Assembly: GCF_000154725.1 (NCBI RefSeq)
Contig: NZ_DS544873.1
Span: 2,379,340 to 2,443,339, forward strand
From: Kordia algicida OT-1
Lineage (GTDB): Bacteria > Bacteroidota > Bacteroidia > Flavobacteriales > Flavobacteriaceae
Direction: 5' to 3'
DNA: 64,000 nt
Position numbers and translations under genes: made by a program. The notes beneath the pieces were generated by a model that saw nothing but the letters and a program-made list of their open reading frames with translations, ran no database searches and was not told the origin of the DNA. This document shows positions 55,591 through 58,945 of the stretch, piece by piece. How positions within the stretch are numbered: the stretch's first letter is position 1; each line of letters opens with the position of its first letter.

Positions 55591-55983
55591 TTGAAAAGAA
55601 TACTTTCCATAACATTACTTATTCTAATTTCCTTAAAACCGATACTCTATGTGAGTCATGTGGCGTATTTTCAATTGAATATCGATTACATTATCGAAAC
55701 CTATTGCATCAATAAAGATAAACCTCAGTTAGAATGTAATGGAAAATGTCACTTAGCAACGCAACTGGCAGAAATTGATCCAGGCGCAAAAGATTCAAAC
55801 ACTTCAAATAGCATTAATACCAAAGAAATTTTCACATTAGTATTTCTTGTAAAGAATACGGTTAATTTACCTGAAAAATCACAAAATTTTTCACCGAAAA
55901 AGTTAATCAACTCATATCAAAAAAACTATTCTTTTTTAGGAATTTCATCTTGCTTCAAGCCTCCACAAGAATATTTAGTTTAA
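55591..55983 (+). CDS. Small exported Cys-motif protein, first gene of MbnP/MbnH-like cluster
   Basis: 130 residues, beginning at TTG (55591). N-terminal hydrophobic segment (ILSITLLILISLKPILYVSH). Four Cys: ETYCINKDKPQLECNGKCHL (Cys39, 49, 53, with His54) and ISSCFKPPQEY (Cys121). The YCxNKDKPxLxCxGKC stretch looks like a metal- or disulfide-bearing motif. I do not know a named family; I recall similar short proteins near copper-related genes in Bacteroidota, which is weak support. It is 67 bases before the MbnP-like gene. Confidence 0.78.
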   Translation: MKRILSITLLILISLKPILYVSHVAYFQLNIDYIIETYCINKDKPQLECNGKCHLATQLAEIDPGAKDSNTSNSINTKEIFTLVFLVKNTVNLPEKSQNFSPKKLINSYQKNYSFLGISSCFKPPQEYLV

Positions 55984-56050
55984 TTCAGTTTACATCTTAG
56001 GCAATTAAATACTAGCCTTGAATAGTATTTTCTATTAAATTAAATTACAA

Positions 56051-56854
56051 ATGAAATTTATAAAATTAACATTTGCGATCATGCTATCGCTTACCATATT
56101 GTCATGCACTAGTGACGACGATTCAAACACGGAAGACTTAACAGGTCAAACAGGAAACTTAGTTTTAAAATTTGACAACGGAGTTGGCGACCAAGATTTT
56201 ATTTTTGGAACAACTTACAACAAGTCAAACGGAGAATCTTATTCCTTAACGACACTTAAATATTTGATTAGTAATGTACGCTTTACTGATGAAAATGGAA
56301 ACGAATTTATGTTTCCACATGATGACAATGTATTCATTATTGATGAAGCAACAGCAAATAATGCAGGTGAAATTTGGCTTACTTTAAATAATGTTGATGC
56401 AGCAAATTACACCTCAGTTACTTTCGGAATTGGGATTGACCAAGAGCGCTATGCATTGGGCGCAGAAGGACAAGGAGATTTCCTCACAGAAGCCGCTGAT
56501 GCTGGCATGATGTGGTCTTGGGCAACTGGTTTTAGATTTACACGTTTTGATGGTACATATTCTTCTGCAACAATCACAGATGAAGCTTTAAATATTCACA
56601 TGGGAAGTGTAGGAACTTCTCTTGACAATTATAGAGAAGTAACGCTTTCATTACCAAATAATGCGCGCGTAAGACAAACAACAACTCCAGAAGTTCACAT
56701 CAAAGCAGATATTGCAAAAGTGTTTGATAGTGATACTACATCTATCAACTTCGCAGACGGCTACAGTCAAGTACACACAAATACCGAAACGACGACTGTA
56801 ATTGCAAATAACATGAGTACAATTTTCACTGTACACCACGTTCATAATGAATAA
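56051..56854 (+). CDS. MbnP-like copper-binding lipoprotein
   Basis: 267 residues. Lipobox LTILSC (Cys19). It matches the MbnP family: NLVLKFDNGVGDQDF, YSLTTLKYLISNVRF, TSVTFGIGID, GMMWSWATGFRFTRFDG (Trp155, Trp157), EVHIKADIAKVF, and a His-rich end FTVHHVHNE. In methanotroph MbnP/MopE a Trp is oxidised to kynurenine by the partner diheme enzyme and then helps bind Cu(I) with His residues. The partner gene follows here. Which Trp or His is used cannot be told from sequence alone. Confidence 0.9.
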   Translation: MKFIKLTFAIMLSLTILSCTSDDDSNTEDLTGQTGNLVLKFDNGVGDQDFIFGTTYNKSNGESYSLTTLKYLISNVRFTDENGNEFMFPHDDNVFIIDEATANNAGEIWLTLNNVDAANYTSVTFGIGIDQERYALGAEGQGDFLTEAADAGMMWSWATGFRFTRFDGTYSSATITDEALNIHMGSVGTSLDNYREVTLSLPNNARVRQTTTPEVHIKADIAKVFDSDTTSINFADGYSQVHTNTETTTVIANNMSTIFTVHHVHNE

Positions 56855-56862
56855 TTTTTAAT

Positions 56863-56901
56863 AAACCTCTCATAATTGACAATGTTGATTTTGGGAGGTT
56901 T
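56863..56901 (+). terminator. Weak hairpin between MbnP-like and MbnH-like genes (possible attenuator)
   Basis: AAACCTCTC (56863-56871) pairs with GGGAGGTTT (56893-56901), one G-U wobble on the plus strand, followed by TTTG only. It lies 9 bases after the MbnP stop and may reduce read-through into the enzyme gene. Confidence 0.55.
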
Positions 56902-56926
56902 TTGAAATATTTAAAAATGTTTATAT

Positions 56927-57976
56927 ATGAACAAACTTATAATATTATGCATCGCCATAACAATTTGGTCATGCTCAAAAAACACGGATTTTGACGAAAT
57001 TTATCAGCCAATTCCTGTAACTGTAGAAGTCCCTGCAAATTTTCCAGAGATGACCTATAATCTGGATAATAATCCTGTGACGGAAGATGGAATTGCTTTA
57101 GGAAAAAAACTGTTTTTCGACGGACGATTGTCTGCTAATAACTCCATTCCATGTGCTTTTTGTCACGAGCAAGCCTTTGCGTTTACACATCACGGACATA
57201 CCGTAAGTCATGGTGTTGATGGAAATGTGGGAAAAAGAAATGCGCAACCAATTCAAAATATGGCATTCCAACGTGAATTTATGTGGGATGGCGCATCTTC
57301 TCATTTAGACTTACAACCAATCATTCCAATTACGAGTGATTTAGAAATGGGCGAAACGCTATCTAACGTAATTCAAAAACTACAAACTGATAACGAATAC
57401 AAAAAATTGTTTCGTCGTGCTTTTGAAGATGGAAACATAAACAGTGAAAATATGCTAAAAGCACTTTCGCAATTTATGATTGTAATGATTTCTTCCAATT
57501 CTAAATATGATAAATATGTGAGACAAGAAGATAACGTAACGCTCACCGCTATAGAACAAGATGGTTTAAATACGTTTACAGCAAAATGCACTTCATGTCA
57601 CGCAACTGATTTGTTTACAGATGAAAGCTATCGAAATAATGGCTTACCTGTAAATCCGCAACTCAATGATTTAGGCAGATTTGACATTTTAGAAAATCCA
57701 GACGATCTGTACAAATTTAAAGTTCCTAGTTTGCGAAATATTGAAGTCACCTATCCATATATGCACGATGGACGATTTTCTACACTAGAAGCTGTATTGA
57801 ACTTTTACAACCAAGGAATGGTTGATAACGGCAACGTAGATCCTAGCTTATTAAGAACTGATGGTAGTTACGGAATTTCCTTAACAGCATATGAAAAAAC
57901 GAGTATCATCGCGTTTTTAAAAACACTTACTGATTATGAATTTTTAAATGATGAACGTTTTGCAGAATATGAATAA
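56927..57976 (+). CDS. Diheme enzyme of the MbnH / cytochrome c peroxidase family
   Basis: 349 residues. Lipobox TIWSC (Cys16). Two c-type haem sites: CAFCH (Cys76, Cys79, His80) and CTSCH (Cys221, Cys224, His225). Between and after them lie the MauG/MbnH-type motifs GRLSANNSIPCAFCHEQAFA, HGVDGNVGKRNAQPIQNM and YPYMHDGRFSTLEAVLNFYN. Partner of the MbnP-like protein, expected to oxidise its Trp in the periplasm. Its stop overlaps the start of the next gene by 8 bases. Confidence 0.93.
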   Translation: MNKLIILCIAITIWSCSKNTDFDEIYQPIPVTVEVPANFPEMTYNLDNNPVTEDGIALGKKLFFDGRLSANNSIPCAFCHEQAFAFTHHGHTVSHGVDGNVGKRNAQPIQNMAFQREFMWDGASSHLDLQPIIPITSDLEMGETLSNVIQKLQTDNEYKKLFRRAFEDGNINSENMLKALSQFMIVMISSNSKYDKYVRQEDNVTLTAIEQDGLNTFTAKCTSCHATDLFTDESYRNNGLPVNPQLNDLGRFDILENPDDLYKFKVPSLRNIEVTYPYMHDGRFSTLEAVLNFYNQGMVDNGNVDPSLLRTDGSYGISLTAYEKTSIIAFLKTLTDYEFLNDERFAEYE

Positions 57977-58883
57977 ATATCACGTATTACTTATACTAAT
58001 TTTGGTGAGTTTCGCAGGAAATGCTTGTGATCTTTGCAGTTGCACCACAAGTGGCGGAAGCGCAACATTTGGAAACTTGGGAATGTCTAATTTTATTGGA
58101 ATTAGATACATTCATCAATCTTATGAATCTCAAAATGGAATTTTTGTCAATTCCCCAAAAAGTCAAGAGCAGTTTAACACCTATCAATTATGGGGTTTTG
58201 TACCACTAAATACCTCTTTTTACATAAGTGCCATTATTCCGTATCAAGATTTAAACAGAACATTTCAAAATTTAGATGAAAACAGTAACGGATTGGGAGA
58301 TATTACTGTAATGGGCTGGTACAAATGGAAGGTTCAAAAAAAATCAGAAGACGAGACTATGACTGATAAAATTGATAGTGGTCATGCCATAAACTTTGGA
58401 CTTGGCGTAAAATCTCCTACAGGAGAATTTGAACAACGTCTGACCGATCGAGTTAACCCTGGATTTCAAGTAGGCACAGGAAGTTGGGATTTTGTAAGTT
58501 CAGCTATGCATTCTTTTGAAAAAAACAATATAGGAATCAGCACAAATGTTTCGTACTATATAAAATCAAAAAATAAAAATGAGTATAAATTTGGGAATCA
58601 ATTCAGCTTTAGCACAAATATGTACTACAAGTTGAACACATCAAAAATGGATATTTCTCCTTTTGTTGCTTTTTCAGGAGATTTTTATGAGTCAATTCAG
58701 CAATATGGTGAAAAACTACCTGAAACTGATGGCTCCATATACAATGCGTCTTTAGGAACAGAATTTAACCTTCGTAAAGTCCAAATTGGCGGTAAATTTA
58801 CCTTTCCGGTATCTCAAGATCTCTTTGGAGGAAATGTGACTTCTAAAAACAGTTTTTCTGTGTATTTAAACTATGTATTGTAG
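57969..58883 (+). CDS. Outer-membrane-barrel-like protein with CxxCxC start
   Basis: 304 residues from the ATG at 57969 (overlapping the MbnH stop in ATGAATAA). Signal sequence MNKYHVLLILILVSFAGNA, then CDLCSCTTSGGS (Cys20, 23, 25) at the mature N-terminus. The rest has alternating beta strands (FIGIRYIHQSYES, YISAIIPYQDLNRTFQ, FGLGVKSPTGEFEQRLTDRV) and ends in VYLNYVL, typical of a transporter-like barrel. The Cys motif at the periplasmic end could hold copper. Role in the cluster inferred only. Confidence 0.88.
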   Translation: MNKYHVLLILILVSFAGNACDLCSCTTSGGSATFGNLGMSNFIGIRYIHQSYESQNGIFVNSPKSQEQFNTYQLWGFVPLNTSFYISAIIPYQDLNRTFQNLDENSNGLGDITVMGWYKWKVQKKSEDETMTDKIDSGHAINFGLGVKSPTGEFEQRLTDRVNPGFQVGTGSWDFVSSAMHSFEKNNIGISTNVSYYIKSKNKNEYKFGNQFSFSTNMYYKLNTSKMDISPFVAFSGDFYESIQQYGEKLPETDGSIYNASLGTEFNLRKVQIGGKFTFPVSQDLFGGNVTSKNSFSVYLNYVL

Positions 58884-58905
58884 TTAATTATAATATGATT
58901 TGAGT

Positions 58906-58941
58906 AATGTATGTTTGCGATTAAAACTTCAAACATACATT
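58906..58941. terminator. Bidirectional terminator at end of the cluster
   Basis: Perfect 12-bp stem AATGTATGTTTG (58906-58917) with CAAACATACATT (58930-58941), between convergent genes. Confidence 0.85.
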
Positions 58942-58945
58942 GCTC

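Follow-up and report, generated by a model that had tools for sequence, protein, structure and literature searches.

A conserved four-gene MbnP/MbnH cluster of Kordia algicida, probably for copper handling, and the histidine triad that links its MbnP to a predicted outer-membrane barrel

The window analyzed here is a 64,000-nucleotide stretch of Kordia algicida OT-1 (contig NZ_DS544873.1, positions 2,379,340 to 2,443,339). It contains a cluster of four genes encoding a small cysteine-motif protein (S), an MbnP, a di-haem MbnH-like protein and a predicted outer-membrane barrel (B) (Table 1), which an initial annotation had read as a possible copper-capture chain. Its four open reading frames (ORFs) lie where it had placed them, all on the plus strand, and the motifs it quoted are present: YCINKDKPQLECNGKC in S, CDLCSC in B, Trp155/Trp157 in MbnP and two CxxCH in MbnH. 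With gaps of 67 nt between S and MbnP and 72 nt between MbnP and MbnH, and a 29-nt overlap of MbnH and B, the four ORFs are near enough for a single transcript. A scan of the locus for sigma-70 promoters and terminators gave no signal exceeding shuffled sequences, the inverted repeat included. The remark that methane oxidation genes are absent holds to the extent tested, as neither PF02461 nor PF05114, the MbnB family, matched in the K. algicida genome. Two controls were positive for PF05114; the PF02461 result is weak, since the control genomes were equally without a match.

Table 1. Features of the four-gene locus (positions in the window)
Feature	Position	Strand	Description
S	55591..55983	+	TTG start, 130 aa; small exported or inner-membrane-anchored protein; Cys39, Cys49, Cys53
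MbnP (PF20243)	56051..56854	+	267 aa lipoprotein; Met153, Trp155, Trp157, His183; extra His216, His263, His265
MbnH-like di-haem lipoprotein	56927..57976	+	349 aa; CxxCH at 76-80 and 221-225; Tyr278, Tyr294
B, predicted outer-membrane barrel	57948..58883	+	311 aa; CDLCSC at residues 27-32, before the first strand
Inverted repeat	58902..58945		16-nt arms, 94%, 12-nt spacer; directly past B; candidate transcript end

Co-occurrence of the flanking genes with MbnP/MbnH across Bacteroidota had been set in advance as the check on the initial annotation, and it is present. Within the Flavobacteriaceae, B was found in 22 of 149 genomes, each time with an adjoining MbnH (22/22). MbnP lies beside B in 21 of the 22 and S lies upstream in 21, the exception in both cases being the same contig end. 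A search of GTDB genomes with B supplied a named set, the best 80 of 257, with loci from Meridianimaribacter, Psychroserpens, Lacinutrix, Polaribacter, Winogradskyella and Flavobacterium. All four genes occur in 75 of these 80, 73 of them directly and two (L247 and L261) with an S that has an odd start; of the remaining five, four are cut by contig ends and one, from Flavobacterium zepuense, is without MbnH. This fixed co-occurrence rules out chance neighbours and marks the quartet as a conserved unit. Across 345 sampled genomes of the phylum, 87 have an MbnP and 128 a member of the S family; the B profile matched in 61, though many of these matches are weak and distant. Of the 112 MbnP ORFs in loci from this sample, 111 have an MbnH within 3.5 kb, 52 an S and 39 a B. 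The K. algicida genome holds a second MbnP-MbnH pair at L025 (genome region 4178500-4198000, minus strand; MbnH 4185856-4186755, MbnP 4187831-4188433). It is without S, B or the histidine triad described below, and a 177-aa ORF separates its two genes.

The window MbnP scores 158.7 bits against Pfam PF20243 (cut-off 27) and 52.8 bits against TIGR04052, the MbnP_like_WxW equivalog, under the cut-off of 140. Its sole cysteine is Cys19 of the lipobox, and it has no four-Cys motif; we take that motif, which figures in the molecule name of 7L6G, to be the defining trait of TIGR04052. An AlphaFold2 model made from 77 alignment rows reached a predicted local distance difference test (pLDDT) score of 87.7, and the top six Foldseek rows for it are all chains of 7L6G, the MbnP of Methylosinus trichosporium. 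In VIA-align the model matched 7L6G_D with a Z of 16.2 and a root-mean-square deviation of 3.4 over 212 residues, against a Z of 5.3 for the next entry. The full set of Met153, Trp155, Trp157 and His183 is present in 105 of the 129 aligned MbnPs. Manesis 2021 reportedly placed the MbnP copper site at WxW together with a Met and a His. At L167 and L179 two MbnP genes lie side by side, one of them having lost the primary-site residues.

The MbnH-like protein, in which Tyr278 is conserved as well as Tyr294, was assigned to CCP_MauG by Pfam. It scores 231.9 bits against TIGR04039, under a cut-off of 362.85 that 3 of the 345 phylum genomes pass, and 172.7 bits against the MauG model TIGR03791, also under its cut-off (443.85). 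Its top PDB match is 6E1C, titled 'Di-heme enzyme', which we take to be Methylosinus MbnH. Both CxxCH haem sites are kept in all 126 aligned MbnHs, rows that were picked as MbnP neighbours. The position of Tyr294 holds Tyr in 116 of the 126 and Phe in 10; judging by the alignment ends of the PDB match, we take it to correspond to MauG Tyr294, presumably the MauG-type axial Tyr that replaces Met. That both MbnP and MbnH are lipid-anchored, as first annotated, agrees with the lipobox-like setting and conservation of Cys19 in MbnP (100/125) and Cys16 in MbnH (113/126).

The predicted structure of B (AlphaFold2, pLDDT 81.1) bears out its early description as barrel-like. There are 13 strand segments in the model, and because segments 109-116 and 119-131 are almost continuous we count B as a probable barrel of about 12 strands, without a plug; Pfam found no Plug domain in the window protein. 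TonB would therefore not be expected to act on B. The closest solved folds in Foldseek are the barrels of FapF (5O67, E 5.6e-11) and the COG4313 channel (4RL8, E 1.3e-9), at 12-17% identity, and we know of nothing that links either to copper. CDLCSC falls within a low-confidence stretch (residues 21-39) ahead of strand one. Such an N-terminus points to the periplasm in outer-membrane barrels as a rule, and on the model the CxxCxC of B should face the periplasm as well. CDLCSC was rejected as a lipobox for most B members, in which the start of the motif ranges from residue 20 to 59 with its form constant.

S and B had been credited with possible metal motifs. The three cysteines of B are invariant in aligned sets of 20 and 61 rows, and the S motif YCxNxxxPxLxCxGxC with a C-terminal Pro-Pro is invariant in 22 aligned rows; some distant barrels are without the third Cys and some without the whole motif. 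Neither window protein matched Pfam or NCBIfam. Searches with more members placed neither in a named family: 20 B members gave single-member hits only in Pfam, the best to an autotransporter barrel (9.5e-5), and 22 S members only single chance-level hits in NCBIfam (best E 0.041). S is probably anchored in the inner membrane, and the K. algicida genome has one copy of it.

The feature that ties MbnP to the barrel best is an extra histidine triad, which is absent from the initial annotation. In the 129-MbnP alignment, His216, His263 and His265 occur together in 49 of 49 MbnPs that adjoin a C[DE]xC[GS]C barrel, a class defined after the data had been seen, and in none of the other 80, that is, 0/72 without a barrel and 0/8 adjoining a CDFC[NS] barrel. 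Taken singly, His216 is found in 7 of these 80, His263 in 0 and His265 in 3. In the named set, His-x-His lies within the last 45 residues in 78/78 MbnPs and CDxCxC is present in 80/80 barrels. The same association could arise if the triad were a structural or zinc site whose match with the barrel comes from shared descent, not function. The groups are clustered on the trees: the triad changes 7 times on an MbnP tree from which the trait columns were omitted and 9 times on an MbnH tree, with 2 and 4 changes, respectively, firmly supported. Supported independent pairs agree in direction (2/2 and 4/4), but the firm changes are few and the sign test gives p 0.5 for the MbnP tree and 0.125 for the MbnH tree, which speaks against a functional link. 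So do the barrels at the edge of the class. Eight MbnPs adjoin the related CDFC[NS] barrel without having the triad, three of these barrels read CDFCNC and so fit CxxCxC, and with a plain CxxCxC class the count becomes 49/52. Those eight MbnPs form one clade on both trees. We nevertheless regard shared descent as an unlikely explanation, given that no exception occurs in 129 MbnPs under the C[DE]xC[GS]C class and that F. zepuense, which retains the barrel, has lost the kynurenine site but not the triad. The triad-barrel link is thus close, yet it rests on few independent events, and kinship explains part of it. A direct interaction of the triad with B has, in our estimate, slightly less than even odds. 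Barrel-less MbnPs at L173 and L162 have His-rich tails in a different register.

The F. zepuense locus (L297) is a natural case of MbnH loss. Here B starts before MbnP has ended, so that no MbnH separates them. The MbnP carries W155S and H183Y and retains His216, His263 and His265, and the locus keeps its barrel. The other 76 rows of its alignment all have Trp155 and His183, and four have Leu at 153. Three di-haem proteins are encoded elsewhere in this draft genome; the best is 33% identical to the window MbnH and scores 341 bits by profile. In three genomes used for comparison, which keep MbnH, Trp155 and His183 though they have Leu at 153, the MbnH of the cluster scores 490-499 bits. A plasmid search for the L297 MbnP found none. 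The case fits a role of MbnH in acting on Trp155 and lends indirect support to oxidation of that residue; it also fits a role of the triad in serving the barrel. It is one draft genome, however, and other MbnPs break the tie between MbnH and Trp155: the L184 MbnP, with no MbnH nearby, keeps Trp155 and His183 (without Met153 and Trp157), and the L174 and L176 MbnPs, each next to an MbnH, carry Phe at position 155. These breaks favour the view that MbnH is an ordinary peroxidase, with MbnP as its docking lipoprotein and copper incidental, as does a LysR-type regulator with a Dps-like gene (both named by eye) directly downstream in 8 Flavobacteriaceae loci. Those loci share other backbone synteny, though, and a peroxide-stress unit was rejected on this ground. 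With the four primary-site residues kept as widely as stated above, and with Trp155 and His183 lost in the sole barrel cluster that has no MbnH, we consider the peroxidase explanation highly improbable.

S genes that lie apart from MbnP have a same-strand TonB receptor within 4.5 kb in 17 of 20 test loci and 6 of 6 earlier loci. Among receptors of the c0 type, both CxxxM and HxM are found in 20 of 22 near S, with the motifs 181-183 residues apart, compared with 6 of 23 away from S. In OprC, which imports copper in Pseudomonas, the copper ligands are Cys143, Met147, His323 and Met325 (PMC8610252). OprC is the first PDB match of the two S-linked receptors tested (E 1e-37 and 2e-8), and an OprC-like motif in a Bizionia argentinensis receptor had already been noted in a 2024 paper (PMC11213822). 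At eight loci a single run holds S, a YtkA-like lipoprotein, an OprC-type receptor and MbnP-MbnH, where the labels YtkA-like (c1) and OprC-type (c0) derive from one named member each, plus the c0 of L147. At five loci in a second family of the order, the run reads S, YHS protein, SCO1, superoxide dismutase, S, MbnP, MbnH and B, and a CPC-type ATPase lies upstream in three of the five. Because relatives of S adjoin OprC homologues that keep the CxxxM-HxM site, a copper role is supported, and the unit very probably handles copper. At several loci (L125, L126, L218, L314, L316 and L320) S lies beside a c53 receptor, without CxxxM, and a PepSY membrane protein; this may be a route for another metal or one linked to a reductase.

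The barrel cluster and the OprC-type receptor tend to exclude each other. In 46 genomes of the two sampled families of the order, 2 have both, 19 the barrel cluster only, 14 the receptor only and 11 neither (Fisher p 0.0015, kinship not corrected and a barrel remnant in genome G427 uncounted). The G427 remnant is short and has three stops (C11:19370-19546, L215), and the genome also has an OprC-type MbnP run (L148); the remnant is perhaps a trace of replacement. The K. algicida genome itself has no good OprC homologue (24% over part; none at 1e-70).

Past the lipobox, MbnPs of the triad group usually begin with C-S/T-S/N-D-D-D or similar. At least three acids at +3 to +7 are present in 30 of the 49 triad MbnPs, compared with 11 of the 72 without a barrel (25 of which have no recognised lipobox) and 0 of the 8 with a CDFC[NS] barrel; for the MbnHs of the same 49 loci the count is 17. 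Similar signals are found in Bacteroides fragilis on surface lipoproteins (SDDDD) and in Flavobacterium johnsoniae on lipoproteins predicted to reach the surface (SDDFE), and both signals function for surface export in Capnocytophaga (PMC5080379). Because its N-terminus resembles these signals, MbnP is likely displayed on the cell surface. The initial annotation had the chain ending at the outer membrane; with such a start on MbnP, it more likely begins there.

Taken together, our results point to a four-gene copper-handling operon, most likely for uptake, to which we assign a probability of roughly 55%. Import as such we put at somewhat better than even odds. MbnP would be a lipoprotein of the outer membrane, perhaps one displayed to the outside of the cell. 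MbnH, with its two haems and an oxidant, would convert Trp155 of MbnP to kynurenine and so complete a Cu(I) site with Met153 and His183, as established for the methanotroph pair. His216 and the C-terminal His-x-His may form a second MbnP site that works with B. Copper would then pass to or through B, toward the CxxCxC predicted on its periplasmic side, and S would take it onwards, as it maybe does elsewhere beside OprC-type receptors. In its full form, with a two-site MbnP whose His216/HxH site feeds the CxxCxC of a plugless barrel of about 12 strands and with S behind it, and with a kynurenine Cu(I) site made by MbnH, the cluster would be a TonB-independent outer-membrane copper gate and a modular alternative to OprC in Bacteroidota, one that has its small Cys3 partner in common with OprC. 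We think this version less likely than not.

Several observations weigh against uptake through such a chain. Both Kordia proteins score under the cut-offs of TIGR04052 and TIGR04039, the families of the methanotroph pair. Pairs of S and B without MbnP exist; three, in one family, have a CAACGC barrel. c53-type receptors near S have CxxxM in 0 of 12 cases. The copper role put forward in the initial annotation finds support in neighbours across the phylum (OprC-type receptors, SCO1, CPC-type ATPase and YHS protein) but none at home: the 6-kb flanks in the window hold none of the tested neighbour types. Among the triad loci, 17 of 49 have tested extra neighbours within 6 kb, SCO1 being present at 8. 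Three genomes carry both barrel cluster and OprC-type receptor (G001, G466 and, outside the two families, G150). Lastly, the best fold match of B, FapF, is a secretion channel, so B could instead export. This last point would suit copper defence, in which MbnP-MbnH would serve as an envelope buffer or store for Cu(I), with B releasing copper and S acting as a periplasmic sink, and the CPC-type P-ATPase, YHS protein and superoxide dismutase that adjoin in the second family would suit it as well. We think defence rather unlikely, slightly more so than a triad inherited by descent, because S is linked to OprC-type receptors and because barrel cluster and OprC-type receptor tend, in the sampled families, to exclude each other as two import routes might. 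As for the CAACGC barrels (L206, L212 and L213), each adjoins S with no MbnP or MbnH, and at L206 an OprC-type receptor comes immediately after. S and B may have formed a pair before MbnP joined them.

Manesis in 2021 reportedly described kynurenine-dependent Cu(I) binding in MbnP, with a genome-neighbourhood survey that may include Bacteroidota. A paper presumably by Kenney and Rosenzweig describes MbnP/MbnH as conserved well outside the methanobactin producers (PMC3621798). The pair is thus already known, and we claim no priority for the four-gene cluster; in the parts of the open-licence literature available, no description of the cluster, S, B or the triad was found. The Kordia proteins resemble the methanotroph ones (7L6G, 6E1C) in MbnP fold, WxW, Met and His and in the adjoining di-haem MbnH-like protein, but differ in having no four-Cys motif, no MbnB match, three extra His and the added S and B. 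CorA/CorB and MopE are absent from the PDB sequence-search hits of the Kordia proteins, with no direct comparison made; in CorA, copper is held by two His and a water, with a kynurenine close by. OprC perhaps does the same job as the barrel cluster and has the same small partner S in other loci, although OprC has a plug and 22 strands (PMC8610252), unlike the predicted B. If the proposed uptake route is true, the MbnP/MbnH 'mystery pair' far from methanobactin would be explained as a part that joins differing outer-membrane partners, either an OprC-type receptor or a barrel. To our knowledge, how ionic copper crosses the outer membrane of Gram-negative bacteria outside Proteobacteria is little explored. 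Here is a defined four-gene flavobacterial system in which each step is open to mutation, given its His triad, its pair of Cys3 motifs and a loss case found in nature. A small lipoprotein, c29, recurs inside or beside the cluster (L039, L041, L042, L083, L085 and L092); the one member scanned had no Pfam match, and two members read have an MMxWMH stretch.

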